Origin: Marinilabiliaceae bacterium ANBcel2
Lineage (GTDB): Bacteria; Bacteroidota; Bacteroidia; Bacteroidales; Marinilabiliaceae
Direction: 5' to 3'
DNA length: 64,000 nucleotides
Assembly (NCBI GenBank): GCA_029688995.1
Contig: JARULA010000005.1
Span: 124,001 to 188,000 of the forward strand
Shown: one piece after another, positions 3,748 through 24,118 of the stretch
Layout: the number at the start of each line of letters is the position of its first letter
Numbering within the stretch: position 1 is the stretch's first letter
Notes under the pieces: generated by a model
The model's database searches: none
The model's input: only the letters and a program-made list of their open reading frames with translations
Told to the model about the DNA's origin: nothing
Translations under genes and position numbers: made by a program

Positions 3748-5607
3748 TTACTCCTTATACTTAATCTTTATAACACGTCCATCCATTGAGGTAAGCCAAA
3801 TATTACCGGCACTATCAAAATCCATAAAATTAACCGAAGAGTTACCTACCTTATGGATCCATTTTAACTCCTCATTGGATCGGTCAATAGCTGTAACAAG
3901 GCCATTTCGTGTTGCTCCTACAACAATATCATCACTGCTAATAACAGGACAGGGATTATGGTCATATCCAATTCCGGCATCAACAATCCAATTTAAGTCA
4001 AAAGAGTTAGTTGTTGTAGATACACTAATTATGTAATCATCCATCAATTTTGCATAAACCTCTTCTCCGCAAGGAGATACTCCCATTGATTCCCTTACAT
4101 CATACTCTCCTGTTCTCCAAATTTCATTTCCACTCTTTAAATCAAGAGAAGTCATATAACGATCAGGTGCAACAATAAAAACCCTTCCTTCAGAAATGGC
4201 AGGAACCACATTGCCCGGAGAGTATAAAACAGCGCCATGATCATTATTCCACTTCCATCTCAACTCACCTGTTTCGGCAGACAAGTTATATAAATGCCTA
4301 TCCCAGGCACCAAACACAACATGATCATCTTTCACAACAGCCTCAGCCTGTACTTGTGCATCAATACCATCAAAGGCCCATTGAACCTCACCACTTACTA
4401 CATCTATTTTATAAAAAGCACTATAACCACCTCCTATATATACAAACCCATCTTTTATAACAGGAGCAGCAACTACCGGACTGCCAGCATTAACCTGCCA
4501 AAGAATATCTCCTGTTGCAACATTAAATCCATAAATATACCCATCGGCAGCACCTGTAACAACAATATCATCATAATATGCAGGAGTTGAAAACAGAGAA
4601 CCTTCAAAATTATGTTCCCACAACACCTCATCAGATAAATAACTAACCACCTTAAGTTCTCCCAATGAATTACCATAAACAAATGCTGTATCATTGATTA
4701 AGGATACACCGGTAAAAACAGATGCTGCATCAACCCACTCATAGTCAATACCAACTGCAGGATATTCGGCATTTACAGAATAGTCAGGCGCAGCTGAAGT
4801 CTCTAACTCCTCTATCTTAACAGGATTATTTAAATCAATAGCAATATCAGGCTCTCCAAGTGGTTTATCCAAAATCTTCTCATAAGCCTGTAATGAATCA
4901 TTATCAATCTTAATAATATTATATCCGGGTTCACCACCATCTCTTAATACAAGAGAACGCCCCATTATACCGGGAATACCATCAAAATTCATAACCCTTA
5001 ACTGATGATGATGACCACAAAAAGAGGCCCTGCAATCATAACTATTTAAAATATCTGTGATCTCATACCAATTATCCAACTCTTCATTAAGAGGATAATG
5101 TGCAAAAGAGAAGAGTTGCTTCCCTTCGGCTCTTTCCTCTAACTCCTTTTTAAGCCAATGAACATCTTCACGCTTAACATGTCCATCTCCCATTTTTAAG
5201 TAAGGTCCAGTACTAAACCCAACAAATAAAAAATCTTTCCATTCTACTATAAAACGATCGTCTCCCCACAATTCAATAAATTTTTGTCCTGCACTCTCCG
5301 ACCAGTTGGTCTCATGATTACCGGGAACTATATGATAATCCTTGTCCAAACCATCAAGAAGATCATAAACCAATAAAAGCTCTTCATTTGATCCTGAATT
5401 GCATATATCACCGGTAATTAAAACCATATCAACATCTGAGCTATTTATTTCATCTATCACATTTTTCATATGCCCAATATTATCTGAGCCCGGAGTAATA
5501 TGAAGATCGGTTAAAAAAGCAAACTTGACTGCCGAAGAGTCGCCCTTTCCGCATCCAATCAATAATGGAATCAATAATGCTAAAAATAATAAACTAACAC
5601 TTCTCAT
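3748..5607 (-). CDS. Lipoprotein with calcineurin-like phosphatase and PQQ beta-propeller domains
   Basis: The 619-residue product starts with a lipoprotein signal (LIGC, Cys19). Residues 27-220 carry the metallophosphoesterase motifs: TDLH (Asp34, His36), GD at 66-67, GNHE at 96-99, AHYP and GHHH, which bind two metals. From about residue 280 to the end, WEHNFEGSL, ILWQVNAGS, VQWAFDG, LRWKWNN and IWRTG mark the regular tryptophan-docked blades of a PQQ-like (YVTN/BamB-type) propeller. The substrate is unknown. Its place between amidase and namZ in a muropeptide operon suggests it removes phosphate from wall-linked polymers such as glycosyl phosphates, but this is inference. Confidence 0.85.
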   Translation of the reverse strand: MRSVSLLFLALLIPLLIGCGKGDSSAVKFAFLTDLHITPGSDNIGHMKNVIDEINSSDVDMVLITGDICNSGSNEELLLVYDLLDGLDKDYHIVPGNHETNWSESAGQKFIELWGDDRFIVEWKDFLFVGFSTGPYLKMGDGHVKREDVHWLKKELEERAEGKQLFSFAHYPLNEELDNWYEITDILNSYDCRASFCGHHHQLRVMNFDGIPGIMGRSLVLRDGGEPGYNIIKIDNDSLQAYEKILDKPLGEPDIAIDLNNPVKIEELETSAAPDYSVNAEYPAVGIDYEWVDAASVFTGVSLINDTAFVYGNSLGELKVVSYLSDEVLWEHNFEGSLFSTPAYYDDIVVTGAADGYIYGFNVATGDILWQVNAGSPVVAAPVIKDGFVYIGGGYSAFYKIDVVSGEVQWAFDGIDAQVQAEAVVKDDHVVFGAWDRHLYNLSAETGELRWKWNNDHGAVLYSPGNVVPAISEGRVFIVAPDRYMTSLDLKSGNEIWRTGEYDVRESMGVSPCGEEVYAKLMDDYIISVSTTTNSFDLNWIVDAGIGYDHNPCPVISSDDIVVGATRNGLVTAIDRSNEELKWIHKVGNSSVNFMDFDSAGNIWLTSMDGRVIKIKYKE

Positions 5608-5617
5608 AATATTTATA

Positions 5618-8587: not shown

Positions 8588-8617
8588 AAAATCAACCTTT
8601 TCACTATAAAATATTAA

Positions 8618-8665
8618 GAAGGAGGAAAATAAGTATATGAAAACATACCCTATTTTCCATCCTTC
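8618..8665 (-). terminator. Intercistronic hairpin between susD and amidase gene
   Basis: The arms 8618-8639 and 8644-8665 can pair over about 20 bases with a four-base loop and a few mismatches. No strong T-run follows on the minus strand, so it may be a leaky terminator or an mRNA-stability hairpin that lets susCD be expressed above the downstream enzymes. This is inference from position and pairing only. Confidence 0.4.
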
Positions 8666-8712
8666 TAAAGAACTATATAACAACTATTAATACAATTGTT
8701 ATTATAAATTTT

Positions 8713-10419
8713 CTACTCCCACCCAGGATTTTGCTCAAGAACAAATCCATTATCACGATAAAGAGCTATTTGATCAACAGGAAGAGGAAACAGATAAACC
8801 CTCTCATCATTAAAGCGTCTTTGACTCTCCTCTCTGTATGCTGGCACTATATATCCTTCTTCTGCACCATCCTCAATAACAACATTTGTCATATCAGGAT
8901 AGTCTGAAGCTTTAATATATGCTCCACGATTAATATCAGAATCACGAGTATCGGTATACTCAAGCTTTTTCCATCGGCGAAGGTCACTATTCCTAAAACC
9001 CTCAAATACAAGCTCAATACGTCTCTCTCGTCTTATTTCCCAAATAATAGAAGAGACATCCTCATCACGTTTAGGATCATCAAAAACCACCCCGTTAACA
9101 GCCGGTTCATCACCAATCAATTCCAAATCGGGTAACCTTACCTCGTCAGGATACCTCCTACGTAACTGATTTATTGAACGATCAAGATCATCCTGAGTAA
9201 GCTCACCCAACTCAGCACAAGCTTCAACATAATTTAATAACACCTCTCCAAATCTTATTATAGGAGCATCTGTAGGATTAAAAGCATTAGTTCCTATAAC
9301 ATCATCAATAATATCCTCATTTAAAAATTTATGCGTAGCATATCCAGTTGTAGAATAGTTAGAGGAGACTCCATTAATTCGAAGTTCATCAACAAACACA
9401 TCATGGATACGTGGATCACGATTAGCCATAACATTATCAATACCATCATCTCCCTGATACTGACTACTTAAATCAACAGGCAAACCATCTAAAGCCAAAT
9501 ATGATTCTAATAAATCTTTTGAAGCTCCTGTTTGAGGCTCATATGCATTATATGTGTGCAAACAATGCGTAACAACCCCAGATTCATAAGAGCGATAAAG
9601 GATAACCTCTTGATTGCCTGATAAGCTCAAACTATTAAACATTCCTCGATAATCACTAACAATCTGATAATCAAATTGAGACATCAACATATCTGCAGCA
9701 TCACGAGCAGCCTCTAAAAATTTAACCGATTGCTCATTCTCTACATCATGATATTTTTGCCAGGTTCCTTCCCATAAAAAGATTCGAGACATAAAAGCTA
9801 ACACAACTCCTCTATTAACTTCCAGTCCATCATTATCAACACTTTTTCTTACATTCTCGGCAGCAAATTCAAAATCCTCTAACACTTTTTGCATTACAGT
9901 AACCCTGCTTTCTCTGGGCCTATACAACTCCTCTTTATCCTCTGAAGAAACCGTTCGGTCAAAATAGGGAACATCACCAAATCGACGTACTAAACGAGCA
10001 TACTCCATACCTCTAAAAAAACGAGCAACACCTAACCAATGCGCTTCAGCCTCTTCGGTTAAAGGAGCTTCAGGAATTCTCTCTATAAACAAATTAGCTC
10101 TTCTAACATAATCAAAGTTCCATCCTCCTCCACTTGTAGGAACATTCTCTACAAATTGTGATGGTTGTGAAGGTCCAAAATCATCATTCAACGATTCACC
10201 CGAAAAGAAATTTCCCCATGTCCATCCATTCCCATAACCTTCAAAAAAATGTGGATAAAAATCATATGAGAATGTTTGAAGGTTATTTTCACTGGTCCAA
10301 AAATTTTCATCTGTCATATCATCTATTGGCAACCTCTCTAAAAAATCATCGGCACATCCATATAAGCCAATAACAGCCAGTATTATAATCAATCGAAATT
10401 TATTATATAATATTTTCAT
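8713..10419 (-). CDS. RagB/SusD-family nutrient-binding outer-membrane lipoprotein
   Basis: The chosen ATG gives a 22-residue lipoprotein signal (LYGC, Cys22); an upstream TTG and another ATG at 10426-10428 are alternatives. The body shows the SusD pattern: DDFLERLPIDDMTDENFW after the Cys, TPR-like helices with RGMEYARLVRRFGDVPYF, the loop around FGEVLLNYVEACAELG, and a C-terminal region IRRERRIELVFEG FR with final P-x-PxDQIALYRDN. SusD proteins cap the paired SusC barrel and bind the incoming glycan. The gene starts just after susC with essentially no gap. The enzymes downstream make murein-derived glycan the best guess for the ligand. Confidence 0.93.
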   Translation of the reverse strand: MKILYNKFRLIIILAVIGLYGCADDFLERLPIDDMTDENFWTSENNLQTFSYDFYPHFFEGYGNGWTWGNFFSGESLNDDFGPSQPSQFVENVPTSGGGWNFDYVRRANLFIERIPEAPLTEEAEAHWLGVARFFRGMEYARLVRRFGDVPYFDRTVSSEDKEELYRPRESRVTVMQKVLEDFEFAAENVRKSVDNDGLEVNRGVVLAFMSRIFLWEGTWQKYHDVENEQSVKFLEAARDAADMLMSQFDYQIVSDYRGMFNSLSLSGNQEVILYRSYESGVVTHCLHTYNAYEPQTGASKDLLESYLALDGLPVDLSSQYQGDDGIDNVMANRDPRIHDVFVDELRINGVSSNYSTTGYATHKFLNEDIIDDVIGTNAFNPTDAPIIRFGEVLLNYVEACAELGELTQDDLDRSINQLRRRYPDEVRLPDLELIGDEPAVNGVVFDDPKRDEDVSSIIWEIRRERRIELVFEGFRNSDLRRWKKLEYTDTRDSDINRGAYIKASDYPDMTNVVIEDGAEEGYIVPAYREESQRRFNDERVYLFPLPVDQIALYRDNGFVLEQNPGWE

Positions 10420-10451
10420 CTTAAACATGATTATTTTATTCAACAATTAGT

Positions 10452-13400
10452 TTATAAAGCAATCTGCAACCCAAAAGAGATAGTTCTGCTATATGGATAT
10501 GATCTACCAAAAGAAAAGCCATAGGCACCTTCTCTGTCTCCTGTTTCAGGATCCATTGGAATATCCATATTATCAAACTCAAACAGATTCTCACCACTAA
10601 AATAGAGCCTCAAATTTGCCAGTCCGGTTCTATTAATAATATGATCAGGTATAGTATAACCAACCGTAACATTTTTGCATCGCAGATAAGACATATCAAG
10701 CATATATTTTGTCTGGCGCAAAAAGTTTCTACCATTATTTATCCAATCATGATCAGTAGGACGTGGATAAAAGGCATCAGGATTATCAGGAGTCCAGTAA
10801 TCAAGTTGATGATCATACCAGGCCTCTGTTGGTCTATATCCAGGAATAAAAACCGGTCCGCTAGCCCACATATCTCTTTTGCCGACACCCTGGAAAAAGA
10901 TACTAAAATCAACCCCTCTGTAATCACCTCCAACCTGAAAACTATATTGATATCTTGGAGTGCTGTTTCCTATGCGGCGTAAATCGCCATGATCATCAAT
11001 AGTGTTTGACCCATAATTAATCTCACCATCACCATTCAGGTCTTTATACTTAACATCTCCGGGACCATATGAAAACCATCCCGATTCAAAAACTTCCTGA
11101 GAAGGAATCCCATCTTTAAGTATATAACGACCATCTTCCATTATTAGCTCTCCATTATCATCGGCAACAAAATCATCATGAGTAAAAAAGCGATCAGTTT
11201 CATATCCCCATATCTCACCCAACTGCTTTCCTTCATAATAACCATAAATATTACGATCATCTCCTGGAAACTTAACAATCTCCTCTTTAAAATCAGCTAT
11301 TGAAGCAGCTCCAGTTAATGATAAGCCATTTACAAACTGATAATTCCAATCAAGAGCAAACTCCCATCCTCTTGTCTGTAACTCACCATAGTTTTGCTGA
11401 GGCGCCGAAGCTCCAAATGAATTAGGTAAAGTTTCACCTGAAGTAATCATATCACTGGTAGTTCTCTCATACCAATCAAACATAAATCCAATATGATTAT
11501 TTAATAGACGGGCATCAACACCAAAATTTAGTGTAGTCACTGTTTCCCATGTAAGACTGGAAGCTACAACACGCGGACTACCCATGGTAAGTTGATTTTG
11601 CCCATTAATAATCCAATTAGAATTTCTGTTACCCATCGTTCGTAAAAATGTGTTGGTTCCAACATCATGATTACCTATAGAACCCCACGATCCTCTTAAC
11701 TTTAAATCATATAAAAATGATCGGGAAAAGTCCATAAAGTCCTCTTCAGTTATACGATATCCAACTGAAAAAGATGGGAAAAACGCCCATTGATCATCGG
11801 CTGGAAATCTTGAAGAGCCATCATAACGACCATTTAATTCAAAAAGATAGCGATCACGATATGAATAGTTTATTCGTCCGAAAAAACCTAAGGTTGACCA
11901 GTGGTTACGTGCTCCACTTACATATTGATCACCGGTAGCTAAACTAAGTTCAGGTTTGTCTTTATCTATTAACGATCTTCTCTCAGATGAATGCATCCAA
12001 TACTCAAGCTTTTCTACATCAGTACCACCCATTGCTTTAATCTCATGCTCATCATATCTTTGATCATAAGTGATAAAAGACTTAAAAGTATTTCTCTCAT
12101 GCCATGAAGAGCGATAGGTTACTCTGTTATGAGTATCACTTGTGTGTCGTCTAAAATTATCAATACCTTCTCCGCCCCAAAAATCATAAGACTCTGCATA
12201 GCCTCCGGGTTCATGAACATGATTATTGTTTTCGGTATAAGTATAATCAGTATCCCAGGTTAATCCATCAGCTAAATCAACTGTAGCACCCAAGTTAATA
12301 CGAGCAAGAGTGGTTTTGTTTTCAATCATATTTGCCTGCTCTATTTCAGTAATAGCATTTCTAAAAGGCAGTCCTTCATAAGTTCCATATGGATAGAATT
12401 CGGGCCAACGCAAAAGATAATACCAGGGATCGGCCAATGTTCCACTATAAGAATAAGGAGTTTGAAAATTTGATTTAGATAGCATCGAACGAGAGCGCAA
12501 CTTAATTCTATCATGCACCTGACTGGCAATGTTAAGAGTAACATTATACCTGTCATAAGAATCAGTTTGAGCTTTCAAAATACCTTCACGTTCCAGTAAA
12601 CCAAACCCCAATGTATATTGAGTTATTTCATTTCCACCGGAAACATTAAGATTGTGATTCTGTTGAGGTGCCCAATCTCTAATATAAAGATCGGTAACAT
12701 CCCATGGACGATAAAAATACCATCTGCCATCACGATACTCAAAATCACGCCCCATAACCATCTCATCACTTAAATCCTGATCTCCATACTGCTCTTTCCA
12801 ATCTCTCATCTTTTCAATCGCAAGTTCATCAACCGACATCCCTAATGTTGTAAACTGAGTAACACTTGGATTTGCCCTTTGAAGAGCTGCAAAAGCCATT
12901 TCTGCACCCTCAGCAGCATCTGCAATTTCAGGAGTAGAGGTAGGTTTATTCCATGAAAAATTACTATTATAGTTAACACTTACCGTACCATCATCAGATC
13001 CGCTCTTAGTAGTAATTAATATAACACCAAAGGCTGCACGCGAACCATAAATTGAAGAAGCTGCAGCATCCTTTAATACAGAGATAGATTCAATATCTGA
13101 AGGATTAACCATAGAAAGATCAGGGATCTCAACATTATCAACCAATATAAGAGGTTGCGCAGCAGTATTTAAAGAGCCGCTATTACCTCTTAAACGAATA
13201 TTAGGAGTCTCCCCCAAATCACCCGTATTACTTGTAATTGTTAGTCCGGGAGCCAATCCCTGCAGCCCTTTAGCCACATCAGTAATAGGCCTGGTTTCCA
13301 GATCTCTTTCAACATTAACCGTAGATACAGCTCCGGTAAGATTTTCTCTACGCTGAGTACCATAACCAACAACTATAACATCATCAAGAGTGATATCATC

Positions 13401-13688
13401 CGGCTCCAGATAAATAGTATAAAACTCTCCATCTTCCACCTCAATATATTTTGTCTGAAAACCAATATAAGTAAATCTAAGAATTTCATTATCAGAAGGC
13501 AAAGAGATCTCAAAGTTTCCATCCATATCAGTTACAGTTCCCTGAGAGGTCTCCTCAATAGTTATCGTTACTCCCGGTAATGGTTCCTGAGTACCAAATT
13601 CCATAACAGTTCCTGAAACTGTTTGTCCGGCCAATTGATGACCGACCAGAAAAATCATACTAAACAATAATAAACTAAATTGTTTCAT
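10452..13688 (-). CDS. SusC/RagA-family TonB-linked outer-membrane transporter
   Basis: The 1078-residue product begins with a Sec signal (cleavage near AGQ at 20-22), then a CarboxypepD_reg-like domain (SGTVMEFGTQEPLPGVTI) to about residue 105, a TonB plug (VIVVGYGTQRRENLTGAV, later VLKDAAASSIYGSRAAFGV) and a long beta-barrel ending in aromatic ISFGLQIAL. The class imports oligosaccharides with its SusD partner. It is the first gene of a minus-strand operon that also encodes SusD, an amidase, a phosphatase, NamZ, a beta-lactamase-fold protein and GH20. A TATATTTG promoter element and a TGTATTACA palindrome lie 70-95 bp upstream of the start. Confidence 0.95.
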   Translation of the reverse strand: MKQFSLLLFSMIFLVGHQLAGQTVSGTVMEFGTQEPLPGVTITIEETSQGTVTDMDGNFEISLPSDNEILRFTYIGFQTKYIEVEDGEFYTIYLEPDDITLDDVIVVGYGTQRRENLTGAVSTVNVERDLETRPITDVAKGLQGLAPGLTITSNTGDLGETPNIRLRGNSGSLNTAAQPLILVDNVEIPDLSMVNPSDIESISVLKDAAASSIYGSRAAFGVILITTKSGSDDGTVSVNYNSNFSWNKPTSTPEIADAAEGAEMAFAALQRANPSVTQFTTLGMSVDELAIEKMRDWKEQYGDQDLSDEMVMGRDFEYRDGRWYFYRPWDVTDLYIRDWAPQQNHNLNVSGGNEITQYTLGFGLLEREGILKAQTDSYDRYNVTLNIASQVHDRIKLRSRSMLSKSNFQTPYSYSGTLADPWYYLLRWPEFYPYGTYEGLPFRNAITEIEQANMIENKTTLARINLGATVDLADGLTWDTDYTYTENNNHVHEPGGYAESYDFWGGEGIDNFRRHTSDTHNRVTYRSSWHERNTFKSFITYDQRYDEHEIKAMGGTDVEKLEYWMHSSERRSLIDKDKPELSLATGDQYVSGARNHWSTLGFFGRINYSYRDRYLFELNGRYDGSSRFPADDQWAFFPSFSVGYRITEEDFMDFSRSFLYDLKLRGSWGSIGNHDVGTNTFLRTMGNRNSNWIINGQNQLTMGSPRVVASSLTWETVTTLNFGVDARLLNNHIGFMFDWYERTTSDMITSGETLPNSFGASAPQQNYGELQTRGWEFALDWNYQFVNGLSLTGAASIADFKEEIVKFPGDDRNIYGYYEGKQLGEIWGYETDRFFTHDDFVADDNGELIMEDGRYILKDGIPSQEVFESGWFSYGPGDVKYKDLNGDGEINYGSNTIDDHGDLRRIGNSTPRYQYSFQVGGDYRGVDFSIFFQGVGKRDMWASGPVFIPGYRPTEAWYDHQLDYWTPDNPDAFYPRPTDHDWINNGRNFLRQTKYMLDMSYLRCKNVTVGYTIPDHIINRTGLANLRLYFSGENLFEFDNMDIPMDPETGDREGAYGFSFGRSYPYSRTISFGLQIAL

Positions 13689-14112: not shown

Positions 14113-15339
14113 ATGAAAAAAATCATGTTTACACTTTTAGCTGTTTTAACAACTATGACGGTAAGCTCACAAGTTAAAACAGGAATTGAAGTATTACGAG
14201 AAAGCAATTTTGAACTATTAAAAGGTCAAAGAGTTGGATTAATAACAAATCCAACAGGAGTTGACAGTCAGTTAAAATCTACAATCGACATTCTTCACGA
14301 AGCCAAAGAGGTAGAGCTAACAGCAATGTATGCACCCGAACATGGTGTAAGAGGAGATTATTATGCAGGCGACCATGTTCAACACACAAAAGATGAAAAA
14401 ACTGGAGTCCAGGTTTACAGTCTGCATGGAGAAATTCGTAAACCCACTCCCGAAATGCTTGAAAACATAGATGTACTGGTATATGATATTCAGGATATAG
14501 GATCACGTTCATATACATATATTAGTACGCTCGGACTCGCAATGGAGGCGGCTGCCGAAAATGATATAAAAATGGTTGTGCTTGACCGCCCAAACCCTTT
14601 AGGAGGAAATAAGTTTGAAGGCCCTCTCGTTGATCAGGAGTTTATCTCTTTTGTAAGTCAATTTCCAATTACCTATGTGCACGGCTTTACAGTAGGAGAA
14701 CTTGCACTTTTCTTAAATGAAGAAAAGATGCTGACAAATGGTGTAAAATGCGATCTTACAGTTATAGAAATGAAAGGATGGAAAAGAGATATGTCATTCG
14801 ATGATACCGGTCTGCCATGGGTTGCTTCATCTCCCCACATACCACATGCACATTCAGCCTACTACTATCCTGTATCAGGCATTTTGGGAGAACTATATGT
14901 TGTAAGTATTGGTGTAGGTTACACTATGCCCTTTGAAGTTTTTGGTGCAAAATGGATGGAGGCTCAAGAACTAAGCGATAGACTAAACTCTATAAACATT
15001 CCGGGAGTTATATTTCGCCCTATACATTACCGCCCATATTACAGCGTATCAGAAGGGGAGTTAATCCAGGGAGTTCAGGTACATATTACCGATCTGCAAA
15101 AGGTTCCGTTATCTATTATTCAGTTTTATGTTTTGCAAGAAGCATACAAAATGAATCCCGAAAAAAATGTATTTGAACTTTGTAATGAAAACAGATTATC
15201 AATGTTTGACAGAGTATCCGGGACTGATCAAATAAGAGAAAAGTTTCAAAAGAGATTTTTAGTTGAAGATATAATAGAGTTATGGGAAAAAGATGTTGAA
15301 CCTTTTGTAAATAAAGCAAAACACTATTTTCTATATTAA
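14113..15339 (+). CDS. namZ: Second NamZ-type exo-beta-N-acetylmuramidase (DUF1343, GH171), periplasmic
   Basis: The 408-residue protein has a Sec signal peptide without lipobox (cut near SSQ at 18-20), so unlike the paralogue at 2373-3560 it should be soluble in the periplasm. The same landmarks are present: PEHG at 75-78, DIQDIG at 125-130 and DRPNP at 158-162. It is a single-gene unit, divergent from the susC operon, with a TACATTTG promoter overlapped by the TGTATTACA palindrome, and ends at a strong terminator. Likely role is to release MurNAc from muropeptides or glycan strands that SusCD has imported, feeding AmpG-like uptake and MurK/MurQ. Confidence 0.92.
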   Translation: MKKIMFTLLAVLTTMTVSSQVKTGIEVLRESNFELLKGQRVGLITNPTGVDSQLKSTIDILHEAKEVELTAMYAPEHGVRGDYYAGDHVQHTKDEKTGVQVYSLHGEIRKPTPEMLENIDVLVYDIQDIGSRSYTYISTLGLAMEAAAENDIKMVVLDRPNPLGGNKFEGPLVDQEFISFVSQFPITYVHGFTVGELALFLNEEKMLTNGVKCDLTVIEMKGWKRDMSFDDTGLPWVASSPHIPHAHSAYYYPVSGILGELYVVSIGVGYTMPFEVFGAKWMEAQELSDRLNSINIPGVIFRPIHYRPYYSVSEGELIQGVQVHITDLQKVPLSIIQFYVLQEAYKMNPEKNVFELCNENRLSMFDRVSGTDQIREKFQKRFLVEDIIELWEKDVEPFVNKAKHYFLY

Positions 15340-15458: not shown

Positions 15459-17309
15459 CTATTTCTTCTTTATTCCAAAATCAGGAGCTACTTTCTTACG
15501 TAGAAGGAATATAAGTATAAATCCTGGGATAGTACAAATCATAACCCAAATAAAGAAATTTACATACCCTACAGCTTCCTGTATCCAACCGGAAATCATT
15601 CCGGGCAACATCATACCCATAGCCATTAATCCGGTACAAATTGCAAAATGAGCTGTTTTATGCTTACCCTCCGAAAAATAGATCATGAATAACATATAAG
15701 CAGTAAAGCCAAATCCATATCCAAATTGCTCAACTGCAACTGCTGAGCTTATAAGCCATAAACTTTCAGGAGTTGTATAAGAGAGAATAATAAAAACAAT
15801 ATTTGGAGCATTCATAGCAATAGTCATAGGAAAAAGCCAATATCTCAATCCTTTTTTTGAAGCCATTAATCCTCCTAAAATTCCTCCCAGAGTTAAAGCC
15901 AAAATGCCAATTGTTCCATAAACCAAACCAACATCACCCGTTGTCAAGCCCAGTCCACCTATCTCACGTGAATCAAGCATAAAAGGTGAGGCAAGCTTAA
16001 CTATTTGTGCTTCTCCCAGGCGAAACAACAATAAAAATGAGAGAGCCAGACCAATATCTTTCTTTTTAAAGAAAGAGCTAAAGGTTTCAAAAAACTCCTT
16101 AAAAATACCATTATCACTATTCCCGGCAGTTGAAACATCATTATCCGGTCTGGGCATAATTAACTTATGATAAAGAAAAAGCAAAATAAAGAGTGCTGCC
16201 AACCCAAAAAACGTTATACTCCATGCCAGAGGTATATTACCTGAAAGTCCTTCAAAATGAGTAACGACACTTGAATCAAGCCGAGGGTCACTTTGAAAAA
16301 CCATAAAAGCAGTTTTATTCCAATTATCTCTGTTAAACTCAAGACGGTCTCCCGAAACCAGCTGAATGCTTTGATCTCCTCTTGTTTGTGCAGTATTCAT
16401 CACAACTGGATCATCTGAATCGGGGGGAGACGAAAGAGTAACACCAACTATAGCAACATTACCCGCAATATCAGAAACCTCCTCAATATCCTGAGGATTA
16501 AATATTGCAGCCAATTTTTGACTTAATGGATCAGAGATATTTCGTGCAAACCATGATGGCTCTCCAGCTTGCTGAGCCAATTCTCCTTCAGAGACAACAA
16601 ATCCATTTTCAACATTATGCTCATAAGCCACATTTATTATACTATCAGCATAGGAGGCCGGTACAGATTCCCATGACATTTCAATATCTTTTTCAGTCAC
16701 AATAAAATCAAGATCGCTTGAGGAAGGCTGATCTAAATCTATAACAGGGAAATCTGAAACAACTTCTATTTTATCAGTTGTCTTAACCGAAATATTTACA
16801 GGATCAAGGCCTGTCCATGTCTCAAAAAAGCCTGCAACAATAATAAGCAGCCCCTGACCGGTTATCATAGCTACTCTGTAAAAAGTGCTTCGAATACCAA
16901 TAAAATAGGATTGCTCTCCCTCTTTCAATGCCAACATATAAAAACCATCAGCTGCTATATCATGAGTTGCTGAGCTAAATGCTAAAAGCCAGAAAAAAGC
17001 TAAGGTGTATTGAAAAAAGTTTGGAGCAGGAATAGTAAAAGCAACCCCAGCTAAACCGGCTCCTACTATCAACTGCATTGTGACTATCCACCATCGTTTG
17101 GTTTTAAGCAGATCCACAACAGGACTCCACAAAGGTTTAATTACCCATGGTAAATAGAGCCAACTTGTATAAAGAGCAATTTCAGTATTTGATATCCCCA
17201 ATCGTTTATACATTATAACCGCAACGGTCATAACGATAACATAAGGAATTCCCTGCGCAAAATAGAGTGTCGGAATCCATCCCCAGGGTGATTTTAATTT
17301 ATTCCACAT
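15459..17309 (-). CDS. AmpG-like MFS muropeptide/MurNAc permease with large central insertion
   Basis: The 616-residue protein is MFS in its N- and C-terminal parts, starting WGWIPTLYFAQGIPYV, a motif typical of AmpG. The first half of the transporter runs to about residue 165 and the second begins near 370, with LLFRLGEAQIVKLASPFML and several helices to the end. The roughly 200 residues between are hydrophilic and acidic, which AmpG proteins normally lack. AmpG carries anhydro-muropeptides or amino sugars from periplasm to cytoplasm. It is the last gene of an operon with SpoIID, DUF4922 and GT2 genes. The transporter call is firm; the exact substrate is inferred from context. Confidence 0.85.
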   Translation of the reverse strand: MWNKLKSPWGWIPTLYFAQGIPYVIVMTVAVIMYKRLGISNTEIALYTSWLYLPWVIKPLWSPVVDLLKTKRWWIVTMQLIVGAGLAGVAFTIPAPNFFQYTLAFFWLLAFSSATHDIAADGFYMLALKEGEQSYFIGIRSTFYRVAMITGQGLLIIVAGFFETWTGLDPVNISVKTTDKIEVVSDFPVIDLDQPSSSDLDFIVTEKDIEMSWESVPASYADSIINVAYEHNVENGFVVSEGELAQQAGEPSWFARNISDPLSQKLAAIFNPQDIEEVSDIAGNVAIVGVTLSSPPDSDDPVVMNTAQTRGDQSIQLVSGDRLEFNRDNWNKTAFMVFQSDPRLDSSVVTHFEGLSGNIPLAWSITFFGLAALFILLFLYHKLIMPRPDNDVSTAGNSDNGIFKEFFETFSSFFKKKDIGLALSFLLLFRLGEAQIVKLASPFMLDSREIGGLGLTTGDVGLVYGTIGILALTLGGILGGLMASKKGLRYWLFPMTIAMNAPNIVFIILSYTTPESLWLISSAVAVEQFGYGFGFTAYMLFMIYFSEGKHKTAHFAICTGLMAMGMMLPGMISGWIQEAVGYVNFFIWVMICTIPGFILIFLLRKKVAPDFGIKKK

Positions 17310-17333: not shown

Positions 17334-18668
17334 TTAATATTTCTGTGTTAGGGAGGCTCCTTTAAAATAGTGATTTAATATCTCGTTATAACTATATCCT
17401 TTTGATCCCATAACAGCTGCACCAATTTGACATAATCCAACACCATGACCCCATCCTGCACCTTTAAGTGTAAAGAATTGAGGAACACCATCTACGATAT
17501 CACCCTTTTCAGGCACAAATGCTGAACTGTAAAGATGAGATGAAGAGAAAGCTTTTCTTATCTCCAACTCCTTACCAATTGTTACACTACCCGTGGATCC
17601 TTCAATTTTTAACTTAACCAATCTTGAAGATACTCCCCGTTGAACAGGAATTAAATCAAGAATATCTCCTACCTCTATTCCTACTCTCTCTTTTAAAAGA
17701 TCCTTTATTTTTTGCTGAGAAAGGGTGACACTCCATCTGTAAAAGTCAAAGGTCTCCTGATCATAATCATTTAAAACCTGCTTTAGCACCTCTTTATCGG
17801 TGGTATTACAAAATGTATTAGGATTACCCTTTATCCATTCAACAGAATTATCCTCCTGCTCAAGATTCATATCATAGCCTTCGGGAGCTTTATCTGCATC
17901 TATAACTTTAGTAAGATAAGGATGTGAAACATGCTCCCACACATTCTCAAACAACTCCGAAACACCACCACAACACTTTGAATAGCGGGCATCGCATATT
18001 TTTCCATCATAGGTTAAAACATTTCCGGATGTTGCAGAAACAGCCTCTTCTACCTCAGAGGTTGAAGCTCTGGTAATACCTTGATAACGCTGGCAGTGAT
18101 CATCAGCACAAACATCAAAATATTGGTGGTCCTCTCTGTCATACCACCTTATCACCTCATCACCCTCTATTATAGTGTTACTATAATTACCACTCTTTTT
18201 AAGAGACTCTCCCTTTTCAATTTGAGCAATAAGCCAGCTGCGAGAAATAACAGAATGAGCCTTTAACATCTCAAGAGAAGATGTGGCACTCATCTCTGAA
18301 GAGATTACACTAATTAAGTAATCTTCAATAGGCAAAATATTAATCGCGCTTAAATGATCTTTCTCCTTTATAACCCTTAAAGCTCCTTTAAACTTTTGAT
18401 TTTCCTGCCTCTCCCAATGAAAGTTTATTCCAATTGTAACATTATAAAGCTCAAAATATGCATTATCGTAATCTACCGGTTCAAAATTAAATGGCAAATC
18501 ACCAGATAGTTTTTTACCATCTATTTCGGCTACAACTCCATTACTGGTTAAAACAATTTCTCCACTACCTTCAAAACAGTTCCCTGTCTCTATATGACGA
18601 TAACGCCCATTAAAGCAAAATGAAATTTTAGGGGCAAACATTATTCCCACTCTTATTCTTGGTTCCAT
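17334..18668 (-). CDS. SpoIID/LytB-domain protein without signal peptide
   Basis: The ATG at 18666-18668 (MEPRIRVGIMFAPK) leaves a 38-bp gap to the previous gene; the longer frame start at 18740 would overlap it. The 444-residue product carries the SpoIID region: NILPIEDYLISVISSEM with the predicted catalytic Glu125, LKAHSVISRSW, and the C-terminal GWGHGVGLCQIGA signature. Cysteines at 187, 192, 225, 232 and 233 may bind a metal or form disulfides. SpoIID is a lytic transglycosylase of denuded glycan strands. No signal peptide or membrane segment is seen, so this copy appears cytoplasmic, which is odd for a wall enzyme. Operon partners are DUF4922 and AmpG-like proteins. Confidence 0.85.
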   Translation of the reverse strand: MEPRIRVGIMFAPKISFCFNGRYRHIETGNCFEGSGEIVLTSNGVVAEIDGKKLSGDLPFNFEPVDYDNAYFELYNVTIGINFHWERQENQKFKGALRVIKEKDHLSAINILPIEDYLISVISSEMSATSSLEMLKAHSVISRSWLIAQIEKGESLKKSGNYSNTIIEGDEVIRWYDREDHQYFDVCADDHCQRYQGITRASTSEVEEAVSATSGNVLTYDGKICDARYSKCCGGVSELFENVWEHVSHPYLTKVIDADKAPEGYDMNLEQEDNSVEWIKGNPNTFCNTTDKEVLKQVLNDYDQETFDFYRWSVTLSQQKIKDLLKERVGIEVGDILDLIPVQRGVSSRLVKLKIEGSTGSVTIGKELEIRKAFSSSHLYSSAFVPEKGDIVDGVPQFFTLKGAGWGHGVGLCQIGAAVMGSKGYSYNEILNHYFKGASLTQKY

Positions 18669-18706
18669 ATATAAACCGGTTAATTTTAATTGATTAAAAT
18701 TAATTA

Positions 18707-19654
18707 TTACTTCGAGAAAACTCTTTTCAGCTTCTCCCAAACATTGTCATCAATAGTTACCTGATTAAAAATATCTGTAATAATCTCACCATTTAATTTT
18801 TCAAAATCCTCCTTTCGGGGAGTTATTAAAACACCTCCAAAATCAACTGATGCCGGACTAAGCATTATTTTGTCGGGATCATCATAAAAGAACTGTTTTG
18901 GACGATGGCCATTTCGGGGAAAAAGAAAAATCTTCCATTGATTCTTCTCCCAAAATGTAAGAATATTTACCATAGGCTCAGGATCGGATGGAATGTTATC
19001 TTTAAAAAAGCTCCACGCTTTACTAAATAACTGATTTAACACAGTAGTATCGCAACCGGTAAAGACCAAGCCTTTGCGCAAATAATTATCAAGAGCATAA
19101 ACTTTATAATCATCGGTTGAGTCTAAAAGAGTCTTGTTTTTAAAAGAGTTAAACTCATCCTCAACAGGTAGAAAACCAACATTGCCCGCCTGAAAATGAA
19201 AATGATCTGGCGCAGAAGCACCACATTTAGGCCCATTATAAAAAACTACATATTTCTCAAGAGCCCTTGAAATTTGAAGCATGTCAACAAATCGCTCTTC
19301 AATTCTTTGATCCTGATGCAAATTACCGGGTATAGTTAAATGCTTCTTAAAAATTGGAAATGGATTTATAAGAATAGTATATTCACCATTAAAATCGACC
19401 CCCTTTTGTACTGAGGGTCGATTTTGTGAACACAAAAAACATTTACGCTCTTTAATAGACTTATCATCAACTTTTGCAGAAGAAGATCTGATTCTCTCAG
19501 GATTAAACTGAACTTTAACCTTAAAATCACCTTCGAACTTTACCTCCTTAACTTCAACACTATTTAACCCATAAAAGTTATCCTTTGCCATTGGCCAATT
19601 CTCCAACTGCTCTTTTATCAAATCCTCGGTCTGTTCATATATTGTCTTTTGCAT
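18707..19654 (-). CDS. DUF4922 protein, GalT/HIT-like nucleotidyltransferase or phosphorylase fold
   Basis: The 315-residue cytosolic protein carries KCFLC (Cys72, Cys75), like a zinc site, and GASAPDHFHFQAG with the His151-x-His153-x-Gln155 triad characteristic of GalT and Ap4A-phosphorylase enzymes, in which the middle His carries the nucleotidyl group. The C-terminal half (LLNQLF..., FPRNGHRPKQFF) fits the GalT C-terminal half. Substrate is unknown. Its operon position, between a glycosyltransferase-like protein and SpoIID, makes an activated amino-sugar or sugar-phosphate substrate plausible, which is inference. It is separated from the GT2 gene by 12 bp. Confidence 0.75.
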   Translation of the reverse strand: MQKTIYEQTEDLIKEQLENWPMAKDNFYGLNSVEVKEVKFEGDFKVKVQFNPERIRSSSAKVDDKSIKERKCFLCSQNRPSVQKGVDFNGEYTILINPFPIFKKHLTIPGNLHQDQRIEERFVDMLQISRALEKYVVFYNGPKCGASAPDHFHFQAGNVGFLPVEDEFNSFKNKTLLDSTDDYKVYALDNYLRKGLVFTGCDTTVLNQLFSKAWSFFKDNIPSDPEPMVNILTFWEKNQWKIFLFPRNGHRPKQFFYDDPDKIMLSPASVDFGGVLITPRKEDFEKLNGEIITDIFNQVTIDDNVWEKLKRVFSK

Positions 19655-19666
19655 ATCATCAAAAAA

Positions 19667-21136
19667 TTACTGCTTATTCATTTTTATACGTGCCCATAAC
19701 TCCATTGTACGAATACGATCTTTATAAATATTATGAGCATTCATCTTTTGAATATCTAAAGAAGCATCAGAATTGTCATCCCATCTGCGACACAAATACA
19801 ATGGATCATATATTCTTCCAATTTGATATTTTCTGGAAATGTTTAAGCCAAGAGCGTAATCTTCGCCATAGCTTGTATTAGGAACTCTCACTTTTCTCAG
19901 CACCGGAGTGTAAAAAGCGCGAGGAGCACCCAATCCGTTAATGCGTAAAGCATTATTACGACCATTATCAGGAGTCCATTCACGATGATCAATAATTCCC
20001 GGGGGTATCTCTTCAAGCTTAAAATTAACCATACGATAACTACCAATAACCATGGCACAGTTTTGATCATAAAATGCTTCAACAACTGTTTTTATAACAT
20101 TATCATCTATATACATATCATCGCTATCAAGCTGAATAGCAAATTTACCACATGCAGGATGAAATGCTCCCTGGTTCCAACATCCACCAATACCCAAATC
20201 TTTTCGCTCGGGAATCACATGAATAAGTCGATCATCATCTGCAGCATACTTTTCTAAAATCTCAGATGTGCCATCGGTAGAGTGATTATCAACAACAATT
20301 AAGTTGAACTTAAAAGGTGTTTTTTGACTTAGCACCGATTTAACAGCATCCTCAACAGTTTTCACCCGATTCATTACAGGTATAATAACCGATGCCTCAA
20401 CAGGAAAATCGGACTTGTCAAATTCAATATTTTCAAACTCTGGCTTAAGCCATCCTCCGATCTTTTTCAAATGATCGGTACAGGCTTTCTCCATCTCGAT
20501 TTGAACCTCCCTGTTTTTAGGATCTACATAATCAAAAATTTTCTCGCCAGAATGCCTTGTATCGGTCTCCATTTCGGTATATAAAGGCTCAGGCAATCTT
20601 AAAATTCTACTCTTTTGAGAAACTTTAAGTCTTAAATCATACAACCCTGCAAATTTATAAGTTGCATCCATATCAGCAACAGCAGATTTTAATGCTGATG
20701 AATCATAAAAGAGAACAGATCCAAAATCAAAATCATCTCTCAAACTTCCATCCTGATAATCAATAACGGGATTAGGTTTTCGTTTTCCATCTGAAACCTT
20801 AACATAATCAGAATAAACCAAACCCGCCGAGGTATCATCAGCTACTGAAGCCAATCTATCCACAGCAAATGCACCTAAATTAAGAGGTAAATTTTTACTA
20901 TAAATTAAAGCATATGGGGTATCGCATTTATCAGCAATAGATTTTACCACATCCGTAGTTTTTAATGAATCTCCTTTAATCCAATCTACCCCATCTTTTA
21001 AAAGTTCATCTACAGGTTTCTCTGCAGCTACAACATAAACCTTCTCGATACAAGAAACCTTTTGAAGTCCGTCGATCGTAACTTTAAGATCTTTCACACT
21101 TCCATTAGCAATAAAACATGTTACTTTTTTATCCAT
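19667..21136 (-). CDS. Two-domain GT2-family glycosyltransferase-like protein
   Basis: The 489-residue soluble protein has two GT-A-type halves. The N-terminal half (about 1-200) looks like a GT2 domain without a recognisable DxD motif. The C-terminal half starts at EASVIIPVMNRVKT (about 247) and contains VVDNHSTDGT and the metal-binding QLDSDD at 335-340, then a GEDYALGLN region typical of GT2 acceptor sites. It is the first gene of the operon that continues with DUF4922, SpoIID and AmpG-like genes and starts opposite murK. A TGTAATACA palindrome lies 62 bp upstream. Donor and acceptor are unknown. Confidence 0.8.
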   Translation of the reverse strand: MDKKVTCFIANGSVKDLKVTIDGLQKVSCIEKVYVVAAEKPVDELLKDGVDWIKGDSLKTTDVVKSIADKCDTPYALIYSKNLPLNLGAFAVDRLASVADDTSAGLVYSDYVKVSDGKRKPNPVIDYQDGSLRDDFDFGSVLFYDSSALKSAVADMDATYKFAGLYDLRLKVSQKSRILRLPEPLYTEMETDTRHSGEKIFDYVDPKNREVQIEMEKACTDHLKKIGGWLKPEFENIEFDKSDFPVEASVIIPVMNRVKTVEDAVKSVLSQKTPFKFNLIVVDNHSTDGTSEILEKYAADDDRLIHVIPERKDLGIGGCWNQGAFHPACGKFAIQLDSDDMYIDDNVIKTVVEAFYDQNCAMVIGSYRMVNFKLEEIPPGIIDHREWTPDNGRNNALRINGLGAPRAFYTPVLRKVRVPNTSYGEDYALGLNISRKYQIGRIYDPLYLCRRWDDNSDASLDIQKMNAHNIYKDRIRTMELWARIKMNKQ

Positions 21137-21197
21137 AGTTCTGAATTTTTGTTATAATTCTCAAAATTAAAAACAAATTTCAAAGAATCAAAGAACT

Positions 21198-21206
21198 TGT
21201 AATACA
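21198..21206. promoter_or_regulatory. Palindromic operator TGTAATACA, copy 3 (GT2/murK divergent region)
   Basis: This is the reverse complement of the TGTATTACA core found at 13761, 13922 and 24119. It lies in the 239-bp region between the divergent GT2 operon and murK-murQ, closer to the GT2 side. The region otherwise shows no gene. Likely bound by the GntR-type regulator at 23189-23920, by inference. Confidence 0.55.
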
Positions 21207-21375
21207 TCTTACATCATTTTGCTGTTTTCACTTTTTTTTATAATATTGCAAAAGATAATAATCAATTTTTATACAAAGTATCAATAATAGAGTGTTTAAC
21301 AAAACCTTTGCCCAATAAAGTTTGTTTTAACAGATAAGGTGCTAAAATATATTTTGTAACATATACTACAATAAG

Positions 21376-22212
21376 ATGATTATAATTGCAGACAGCGGAT
21401 CAACAAAAACAACCTGGACTTTTATCAAAAAAACAGGTGAAATAGTTAATCAAGTAAAAACTAAAGGCATTAACCCTTTTTACCAATCGAAAGAAGAGAT
21501 AAGCCACATAATAAAAGAAGAGATCTCTTTTAAAGTAAATACACCGGTTGAAGTGCATTTTTACGGAGCAGGTTGTGCAAATGAAGAGAAAAACAGTCTG
21601 GTTAAAAATGCAATAACGCAGGTATGGAACACATCACAAATAAATGTAGAAAGTGATCTATTAGCTGCAGCACGCTCCCTATGCAAGCATAGGCCGGGTA
21701 TAGCCTGTATCATGGGAACCGGCTCAAACTCATGCGTATATGATGGAAAAACAATAATCAATCATGTATCACCATTAGGTTATATTTTGGGTGATGAAGG
21801 TAGTGGTGCAGTTTTAGGAAAAAAGCTTGTAGCGGATATTTTAAAACAACAACTACCAAATGAAATAATAAAAGAATTTGAAAACACCTACAGCTATAGT
21901 GCTGCAGAAATTTTAGACAGGGTATACAAACAGCCATTTCCTAACAGATTTTTGGCACAATTCACCTATTTTCTCTCTAAAAACAGAGATCACAATAAAA
22001 TAAAAAATCTTATAGTCAGCAGTTTTATAGAGTTTTTTAAGAGAAATATAGATCAATATGAAAATGCTAAACATCAGCCTGTTCACTTTACAGGTAGTAT
22101 TGCATGGTACTTTAAAGATCTTTTAGAGGAGGCCGCAAAAGAGTGTGGGTATCAAATCGAAGAAATAAGTAAAGATCCCATGAACGGATTAATTGAATAT
22201 CATACAAACTAA
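21376..22212 (+). CDS. murK: BadF/BadG-type sugar kinase, probable MurNAc/GlcNAc kinase MurK
   Basis: The 278-residue protein belongs to the actin-like BadF/BadG/BcrA/BcrD ATPase fold. The phosphate-1 loop is ADSGSTKTTW at 5-14; IMGTGSNS and GYILGDEGSGAVLG form the later phosphate and adenosine loops, and HFTGSIAWYF is near the C-terminus. This family includes MurK and GlcNAc kinase, which make MurNAc-6-phosphate or GlcNAc-6-phosphate from the imported sugar. The next gene, murQ, is 21 bp away in the same direction and uses MurNAc-6-phosphate, so MurNAc kinase is the best reading. No amgK/murU route genes are seen nearby. Confidence 0.85.
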   Translation: MIIIADSGSTKTTWTFIKKTGEIVNQVKTKGINPFYQSKEEISHIIKEEISFKVNTPVEVHFYGAGCANEEKNSLVKNAITQVWNTSQINVESDLLAAARSLCKHRPGIACIMGTGSNSCVYDGKTIINHVSPLGYILGDEGSGAVLGKKLVADILKQQLPNEIIKEFENTYSYSAAEILDRVYKQPFPNRFLAQFTYFLSKNRDHNKIKNLIVSSFIEFFKRNIDQYENAKHQPVHFTGSIAWYFKDLLEEAAKECGYQIEEISKDPMNGLIEYHTN

Positions 22213-22233: not shown

Positions 22234-23085
22234 ATGGTCGGCGAAAAAGAAAATAGAAAGTTCACATTAAGCATCACTGAATCTCCATCACAATTCAGTC
22301 AGCTTGATAAGATGTCGGTTAATGATTTAATAAATGCAATAAATCAGGAAGATGCCAAAGTTCACAAAGCAGTGGAAAAAGTACTGCCTACAATAGAAAA
22401 ATTTATTGTCCTAATTGTTGAAAGAATGAAAAAAGGAGGACGAGTATTTTATCTAGGAGCTGGAACGAGTGGACGTTTAGGTGTTTTAGATGCTTCAGAA
22501 CTACCACCAACCTTTGGAGTTCCCGAAAATATGGTTATAGGATTAATTGCAGGTGGAGATGTTGCATTAAGAAAAGCAGTAGAAAAAGCTGAGGATGACC
22601 CTCTTCAGGCCTGGAAGGAGCTTCAAGGATATAATATAAATAAAAACGATACGGTAATAGGTATTGCTGCATCCGGAACTACACCCTATGTAATTGGAGG
22701 TGTTGATACTGCAAGGAAAAACGGACTTTTAACGGGTTGTATAACCTGTAATCCAAACTCTAAAATTGCCAAAGTAGCAGATTTTCCAATAGAAGCAATT
22801 GTTGGACCGGAATTCATCACCGGGAGCACAAGGCTCAAAGCTGGTACTGCTCAAAAAATGATCCTCAATATGATAACCACAACAATCATGATTAAATTGG
22901 GGAAAGTAAAAGGTAATAAGATGGTAAACATGCAGCTCACCAATCAAAAACTAATAAAAAGAGGAACACACATGATTATGGAAGAGCTAAAAATATCGTA
23001 TGAAGATGCTCATGATCTATTAATTAAGTGCGGTTCTGTTAAAAAAGCCATAGATACATGGAACAGAGGGGGACAACTAAAATAA
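22234..23085 (+). CDS. murQ: N-acetylmuramic acid-6-phosphate etherase MurQ
   Basis: The 283-residue protein has a SIS sugar-phosphate fold with GAGTSGR at 75-81 and the catalytic ASELPPTFG (Glu89); KAEDD supplies the second acid, and the C-terminus has GSTRLKAGTAQKMILNM, a MurQ signature. The enzyme removes D-lactate from MurNAc-6-phosphate to give GlcNAc-6-phosphate, which joins amino-sugar catabolism. Length agrees with the family. It is co-transcribed with murK and ends at a strong hairpin terminator. Confidence 0.95.
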   Translation: MVGEKENRKFTLSITESPSQFSQLDKMSVNDLINAINQEDAKVHKAVEKVLPTIEKFIVLIVERMKKGGRVFYLGAGTSGRLGVLDASELPPTFGVPENMVIGLIAGGDVALRKAVEKAEDDPLQAWKELQGYNINKNDTVIGIAASGTTPYVIGGVDTARKNGLLTGCITCNPNSKIAKVADFPIEAIVGPEFITGSTRLKAGTAQKMILNMITTTIMIKLGKVKGNKMVNMQLTNQKLIKRGTHMIMEELKISYEDAHDLLIKCGSVKKAIDTWNRGGQLK

Positions 23086-23188: not shown

Positions 23189-23920
23189 CTACTTTAAAAC
23201 AGCTTTAAAATATTTTTCATACATCTCATGATTTCGTATCAGCAACTTAACAGCTTCTTTATGGGCTGCTTCCTCATCCTGCTTCTCAACCGCAGCTAAA
23301 ATTTTCTTTTGAGCTTCAAGAGTGTACTCTTTTTCTCCCTCAACATTAGCATAAATAAAATTACGCATTCTGGGTAAAAGAGAATAAATAGGCTCCATAG
23401 TGACAATAACAATAGGATTTCCCGTTGCATTTGCCAAAGTCATATGAAACTTATTAATAGTATCAACCTCAAGCTGAGTATTATCCGGGTCACAACTTTC
23501 AAGGTCATTCAAATTTTTTCTTAATTCAGCCAAAGCCTCCTCTGGTCTGTTACGAGCTGCAAGTCTTGCTATTTCAGGCTCAAAAAGTCGACGCACCTCA
23601 ATAATTTGAGAAATAAGATTAGAATCAAACTTTAAATCATAATAGAGATTTAATGAATTAATTGCATCCTCTATCCTTATCTCCGAAACATACATTCCGC
23701 TACCTTTGCGAATTTGTATTAACCCACGTGCACTCAATCTACGCAACGCCTCCCTAAGAGCAGTACGGCTAACAGCAAACCGTTCACACATCTCTTTCTC
23801 GGAAGGAAGTCGAGAACCACTCAACAACTTTTTTTGTCTTATAGCCTCTTCTATCTTTCTTTCAATCTTTTGACTCAGGGTTTGCGTAACACCTATCTTA
23901 CTGAAAACATCATTATCCAT
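23189..23920 (-). CDS. GntR-family (FadR subfamily) transcription regulator
   Basis: I take the ATG at 23918-23920 (MDNDVFSKIG); the frame extends 13 codons upstream without a plausible start. The 243-residue product has an N-terminal winged helix, with SRLPSEKEMCERFAVSRTALREALRRLSARGLIQIRKGSGMYV matching GntR, followed by an all-helical FCD ligand domain from about residue 80. That domain contains RRLFEPEIARLAA, then KFHMTLANATGN and RNHEMYEKYFKAVL, with histidines for metal or ligand binding. It most likely senses an amino sugar or muropeptide and controls the surrounding locus. A TGTATTACA palindrome lies 199 bp upstream of its start. Confidence 0.9.
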   Translation of the reverse strand: MDNDVFSKIGVTQTLSQKIERKIEEAIRQKKLLSGSRLPSEKEMCERFAVSRTALREALRRLSARGLIQIRKGSGMYVSEIRIEDAINSLNLYYDLKFDSNLISQIIEVRRLFEPEIARLAARNRPEEALAELRKNLNDLESCDPDNTQLEVDTINKFHMTLANATGNPIVIVTMEPIYSLLPRMRNFIYANVEGEKEYTLEAQKKILAAVEKQDEEAAHKEAVKLLIRNHEMYEKYFKAVLK

Positions 23921-24118
23921 TGTTATAACTAATAATACAACATATAAGTTAATTGGCAAAGGTAGCTTTTTAAACAGATAAAGAGAAATTTTTAAGATAA
24001 TAAGTTCATGCCAATGAGTAAAACAAAAAAAACATCAAATATAAGATGCTCACTTTCAAACTTTTGAAGAAGGTAACACATAACACAAATAAAACCAATT
24101 AAACCACACGAAAAAAGA

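Follow-up and report, generated by a model that had tools for sequence, protein, structure and literature searches.

A conserved trio of SpoIID, DUF4922 and GT2 proteins beside AmpG, probably a route for recycling of cell-wall sugars in Bacteroidota

We analysed a 64,000-nucleotide stretch of DNA from Marinilabiliaceae bacterium ANBcel2 (hereafter the window; contig JARULA010000005.1, positions 124,001 to 188,000, of the 2.98-Mb Bacteroidota assembly GCA_029688995.1). It carries three adjacent genes for a SpoIID-domain protein, a DUF4922 protein and a family 2 glycosyltransferase (GT2), next to the gene of an AmpG-type permease. We find that the trio is one functional unit. Its locus is neither an artefact nor ordinary, but a widespread uncharacterised variant of peptidoglycan recycling. 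We suggest that with the trio many members of the Bacteroidota and Ignavibacteria, gut Bacteroides among them, probably recycle the sugars of their cell wall by a route not described so far. For its role we give an even chance to a cytosolic module which processes the N-acetylglucosaminyl-1,6-anhydro-N-acetylmuramic acid (GlcNAc-anhMurNAc) imported by AmpG and replaces the NagZ/AnmK route.

The original prediction, made from the letters of the window, described the trio as an operon at 17334-21136 next to AmpG. The open reading frames lie exactly there on the minus strand, the SpoIID frame being listed up to 18740. Transcription runs from 21136 to 15459 in the order GT2, DUF4922, SpoIID, AmpG, with gaps of 12, 38 (counted from the ATG at 18668) and 24 bases. 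This order, together with NamZ, MurK and MurQ, recurs across Bacteroidales, and all three genes stand together in 54 of the 80 loci reached via GT2. Where a GT2 locus seemed devoid of DUF4922, every case checked had the DUF4922 gene at another place in that genome, and DUF4922 is present in 23/23 checked genomes reached via GT2. At eight loci (L217, L233, L235, L246, L249, L251, L058 and L061) SpoIID is fused behind DUF4922, and at three others (L276, L278 and L062) GT2 is fused to DUF4922. In a set of 80 genomes the SpoIID orthologue (E < 1e-110) occurs in 41/41 genomes with DUF4922 and in 0/39 of the others, which give weak generic matches only. In 20 of these 41 genomes SpoIID is unlinked, being on another contig in 19 and 3.15 Mb away in one. 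Chance neighbourhood is rejected by the recurring order, the two fusion types and the full co-occurrence of unlinked genes, and the grouping into one functional unit is supported. The SpoIID members are 44-65% identical to the window copy. Named carriers of the trio include Bacteroides fragilis, B. xylanisolvens, Parabacteroides distasonis, Marinilabilia, Anaerophaga, Dysgonomonas and Ignavibacteria. A DNA pattern search with a single protein gave no match.

The distribution of the trio ties it to AmpG. In the 80-genome set AmpG is present in 41/41 trio-positive and 5/39 trio-negative genomes (p 1e-17, relatedness ignored), which indicates that the trio depends on AmpG and upholds the predicted link to imported muropeptides; the TIGR00901 scores of AmpG lie under the curated cut-off in the window and likewise in all 80 genomes. 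AnmK shows the inverse pattern, with 10/41 trio-positive and 37/39 trio-negative genomes. The same is seen in a larger sample from the order of the window, where AnmK occurs in 11/79 trio-positive and 203/245 trio-negative genomes (p 5e-29, relatedness ignored; part of the trio-negative genomes are incomplete). None of the 46 genomes with AmpG lacks both the trio and AnmK, and the five without the trio all have AnmK. MurK was rejected as a discriminator, as its homologue is found in trio-positive and trio-negative genomes alike. NagZ (NF003740) was uninformative because glycoside hydrolase family 3 (GH3) proteins, mostly of a 950-1050-residue type, match in 79/80 genomes. Bacteroidota seem to use two recycling layouts, and the trio marks the one that contains AmpG.

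On an rpoB tree the trio changes about 7 times (about 5-7 independent gains or losses). AmpG moves with the trio in 4.8 of 5 pairs (p 0.0625). AnmK never moves with it, changing in the opposite direction in about 3 pairs and showing no difference in about 2 (p ~0.25). These directions agree with a replacement of AnmK by the trio, but cannot reach significance.

The SpoIID domain is recognised by PF08486 (1.4e-24), by TIGR02669 (SpoIID_LytB, 1.5e-53) and by the PDB structure 4rwr (4.3e-28). The TTG at 18740, where the listed frame begins, sits within DUF4922; the conserved N-terminus (M-EP-I-VGI) begins at the ATG at 18668, which most likely is the true start. The frame is closed upstream by a stop at 18747, therefore no other start can add an export signal, and the intervening 24 residues are not signal-like. 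An export signal from an alternative start, the finding named beforehand as refuting the cytosolic assignment, is thus rejected. None of the 60 SpoIID orthologues has a clear hydrophobic N-terminal signal stretch by hydropathy. The top value over 12 residues among them is 2.10, as against 2.20, 2.31 and 2.72 in exported controls, a narrow margin for that sequence. The proposed localisation of SpoIID was followed at the level of sequence, where both the N-termini and the fusion to DUF4922 at eight loci point to a protein located in the cytosol. It would accordingly differ from the SpoIID/LytB lytic transglycosylases, which are exported and act on the sacculus.

The predicted active site of SpoIID is intact. 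The Glu of the SVISSEM motif and the H-x5-C-x3-HC motif are kept in 60/60 orthologues. E125 of the window protein is the counterpart of E88 of B. subtilis and E101 of C. difficile, whose role is known (PMC6221140). In the C. difficile enzyme the zinc ligands are H134, C140, H145 and C146, spaced as H-x5-C-x4-HC, one residue wider than in the trio, and E101 and C140 are required (PMC6221140).

The DUF4922 protein matches its Pfam family with 1e-63 and, marginally, the N-domain of Ap4A phosphorylase (5.6e-5). The HxHxQ triad noticed earlier (H151-F-H153-F-Q155) is invariant in 57/57 relatives. We found no literature on the function of bacterial DUF4922. Models with sugar nucleotides had been proposed for DUF4922 and GT2; AlphaFold2 models of the proteins alone already place their folds. 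For DUF4922 (mean predicted local distance difference test score, pLDDT, 93.5) the nearest fold in Foldseek is the yeast Ap4A phosphorylase Apa2 (4i5t, E 1.8e-12), followed by GalT (1.8e-4). GT2 (pLDDT 92) is matched over its full length by the tandem GT-A enzyme K4CP (E 3e-20) and over one domain by TarS/TarP. The Glycos_transf_2 match (1.1e-24) is located in its C-terminal half, where DSDD and ED are invariant in 61/61 relatives; the N-terminal domain has no DxD. With a GT-A fold carrying DxD and ED in the C-terminal domain, GT2 belongs to the glycosyltransferases, and by the modelled K4CP-like fold it reads as a two-domain protein, as predicted; alignment of its halves against each other by hhalign is not significant alone. 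A nucleotidyl-transfer fold beside GT2 makes the idea that the trio activates or reuses sugars plausible.

In E. coli GlcNAc-anhMurNAc is split by NagZ, after which AnmK opens the anhydro sugar and phosphorylates it. The own genome of the window gave no match to AnmK (PF03702), and its best NagZ-type GH3 match (L279:1242-3041) has a lipoprotein-type signal (FAFGC), by which the enzyme probably lies outside the cytosol. The adjacent MurK kinase requires free MurNAc (PMC10465942). Something must open the anhydro ring. We choose SpoIID because the chemistry of its family is at that bond, and Waddlia SpoIID is able to yield hydrolysed, non-anhydro products (PMC6635528). The GT2-DUF4922 fusions suggest a shared nucleotide sugar, and recovery of GlcNAc is the obvious need. 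From this we infer the following steps. We hold the assignment to wall-sugar recycling with good confidence and the ring-opening role of SpoIID with moderate confidence, and the reaction of GT2 and DUF4922 is doubtful.

Step 1: AmpG would import GlcNAc-anhMurNAc into the cytosol, an assignment made from homology and from work on T. forsythia.

Step 2: SpoIID, with its Glu and zinc site intact, would add water over the 1,6-anhydro bond, thus forming a reducing MurNAc end.

Step 3: GlcNAc would be recovered by GT2 and DUF4922 through a nucleotide-sugar intermediate, and this is the weakest step. GT2 may work in reverse (GlcNAc-MurNAc + UDP -> UDP-GlcNAc + MurNAc), and DUF4922 may phosphorolyse or exchange the nucleotide sugar (with inorganic phosphate, Pi: UDP-GlcNAc + Pi -> GlcNAc-1-P + UDP). 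Hydration of the ring by SpoIID, reversal of GT2 and phosphorolysis by DUF4922 would give the net reaction GlcNAc-anhMurNAc + H2O + Pi -> GlcNAc-1-P + MurNAc, which would save ATP compared with hydrolysis plus a kinase. As a complete scheme this nucleotide-cycled phosphorolysis is rather doubtful.

Step 4: MurK and MurQ would convert MurNAc to GlcNAc-6-P, as established for T. forsythia.

Two parts of the original prediction change with this mechanism. The trio had been thought distinct from the MurK/MurQ route; MurK and MurQ adjoin it in many loci, and it most plausibly feeds them instead of NagZ/AnmK. Cutting of glycan fragments is unlikely as the main reaction of SpoIID: what AmpG is known to carry is a disaccharide without a MurNAc-GlcNAc bond, and ring opening of anhMurNAc fits better.

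Several points weigh against the proposed module. We know of no SpoIID that hydrates a 1,6-anhydro bond; members of the family favour polymers. GT2 enzymes usually work in the direction of synthesis, and DUF4922 and GT2 are without assigned reactions. A cytosolic NagZ was not found in the own genome, a result that covers the best GH3 match but not two weaker ones. AnmK stands alongside the trio in the 10/41 and 11/79 genomes given above (e.g. G154, G272, G394 and G409). Independent contrasts are few, with 5 well-supported pairs on the rpoB tree.

The last two points are also what one would expect if the Bacteroidales and Ignavibacteria retained the AmpG cluster by shared ancestry and lost AnmK for unrelated reasons, the trio having been gained or lost so few times. 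We consider this unlikely, since AnmK never shifts in the direction of the trio, and the two fusion types and the full co-occurrence of unlinked genes show coupling within the trio independent of the fate of AnmK.

Equally improbable, in our estimate, is a priming pathway in which an exported NagZ removes GlcNAc, AmpG or another carrier imports anhMurNAc (or its peptide), and DUF4922 makes a nucleoside diphosphate sugar. GT2 would put the sugar from it on O4 of anhMurNAc, and SpoIID would bind the resulting disaccharide and open its ring. Here GT2 works in its usual direction, the GH3 enzyme of the own genome is a lipoprotein by its signal, and sites of the lytic-transglycosylase type generally bind disaccharide units. 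Such a pathway, however, spends a nucleotide sugar and needs an extra reaction by which the sugar is taken off again, and AmpG of T. forsythia is ruled out for uptake of free anhMurNAc (PMC7670621).

The literal reading, in which a transglycosylase or muramidase activity of SpoIID in the cytosol cuts imported tetrasaccharides or longer chains and GT2 and DUF4922 process the products, looks less probable still. SpoIID enzymes do cleave glycan strands (PMC6635528, PMC6221140), and the trio protein conserves both catalytic Glu and zinc ligands; the known cargo of AmpG, however, is a disaccharide, and a transglycosylase would add to the anhMurNAc of genomes most of which are without AnmK. That the trio serves to assemble or trim some glycan (a storage polymer, a capsule or the glycan of a protein) and is merely co-regulated with AmpG is very improbable: the GT2 fold is closest to the chondroitin polymerase K4CP and the T. 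forsythia operon was also reported as glycosylation-related (PMC5388701), but the 41/41 coupling to AmpG and the inverse AnmK pattern hold for unlinked genes too, and flippase, export or polymer genes were not seen travelling with the trio.

Features of the operon and its surroundings are listed below.

Table. Features of the trio locus (positions in the window)
Feature	Position	Strand	Remark
GT2, 489 aa	19667-21136	-	First gene of operon; two domains: N-terminal GT-A-like, lacking DxD; C-terminal GT2 of active type
GT2 DSDD metal/nucleotide-sugar motif, residues 337-340	20117-20128	-	Invariant
GT2 ED (catalytic base) motif, residues 425-426	19859-19864	-	Invariant
DUF4922, 315 aa, GalT/Ap4A-phosphorylase-type nucleotidyl-transfer protein	18707-19654	-	Pfam and AlphaFold2 model
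DUF4922 HFHFQ (HxHxQ) triad, residues 151-155	19190-19204	-	Conserved in 57/57
SpoIID, predicted cytosolic, 444 aa from ATG 18668 (468 aa from TTG 18740)	17334-18668	-	Pfam/NCBIfam
SpoIID predicted catalytic Glu, E125 of ATG form, in SVISSEM	18294-18296	-	60/60 orthologues
SpoIID predicted zinc site H181-x5-C187-x3-H191-C192	18093-18128	-	60/60 orthologues
AmpG-type permease, 616 aa, central insert	15459-17309	-	Last gene of operon; TIGR00901 3.7e-49
MurK-type sugar kinase	21376-22212	+	Divergent from operon
MurQ, MurNAc-6-phosphate etherase	22234-23085	+	TIGR00274 9.5e-98
NamZ exo-beta-N-acetylmuramidase with export signal	14113-15339	+	Family match 5.5e-85
GT2/MurK divergent intergenic region, presumed promoter region	21137-21375		Consensus matches only
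GntR/FCD (NanR-like) regulator	23189-23959	-	Adjoins MurQ in several relatives too

The central insert of AmpG measures about 190 residues; it is common to many relatives (~604-646 aa) and absent in others (430-450 aa). Left of NamZ, at 3748-13688, large reading frames resemble two SusC/SusD-type pairs. In 41/120 loci, though not beside the window operon, the operon has near it a large protein with a Golvesin_C domain and an N-terminal signal (e.g. L231:2998-6084), apparently of the 'xanthan lyase' type of Tanf_08345. Outside the class of the window, one group (L082:6539-13307) has BadF kinase, GT2, GNAT acetyltransferase, DUF4922, SpoIID and AmpG; an acetyltransferase is within the cluster at four loci (L082, L072, L078 and L081), the full order not being kept in all. 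At some loci (L047:7163-8038, L257) MurK-type kinases flank the operon on both sides, as MurK and K1058 do in T. forsythia.

If the proposed module is correct, peptidoglycan recycling would have a third layout, in which SpoIID and DUF4922 carry out new activities. The module also gives three named candidate genes for the use of anhMurNAc without AnmK in Bacteroidales, a question stated as open for T. forsythia (PMC7670621), and is relevant to the retention or release, by gut Bacteroidota, of muropeptides sensed by the host.

Compared with known systems, the own genome of the window shares AmpG import and the MurQ exit with the AmpG-NagZ-AmpD-AnmK-MurQ recycling of E. coli; unlike it, this genome has no AnmK, and has a MurK kinase and the trio. 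The trio SpoIID shares the domain and catalytic Glu of the B. subtilis, C. difficile and Waddlia proteins and zinc ligands of the C. difficile type. In contrast to them it has no recognisable signal peptide, is fused to DUF4922 in some species and is tied to AmpG rather than to sporulation or division. DUF4922 shares fold and HxHxQ triad with Apa2, GDP-L-galactose phosphorylase and GalT, Apa2 being the best match, but is only ~20% identical to this group and is paired with a GT2.

The closest parallel is T. forsythia, which appears to have the same operon. Its genes Tanf_08345-08385 place gtf, gtf, lytB, ampG, ybbC (NamZ), murT, murK and murQ on one transcript (PMC5388701). The likeness in the gtf-gtf-lytB-ampG order, with NamZ and MurK/MurQ, is one of annotation and order only. 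In the window MurK/MurQ are divergent on the opposite strand, NamZ is on the other strand, and no MurT is seen between AmpG and MurK. The view that the trio has no established function stands in that PMC5388701 tested AmpG and regulation and gave gtf/gtf/lytB no function; the operon itself was already known there, with its transcription together with ampG and murTKQ. T. forsythia, which has no AnmK, uses GlcNAc-anhMurNAc (PMC7670621). The natural substrate of K1058, whose gene is directly upstream of the operon, is unknown (PMC10465942), and a product of the trio would fit. Last, Rhodothermus marinus has no AmpG, an exported NagZ and AnmK (PMC6987092). Its exported GH3 NagZ has a probable counterpart in the own genome of the window, and it resembles most trio-negative genomes of our sample, in which AnmK is present and AmpG absent, a layout complementary to that of the trio genomes.

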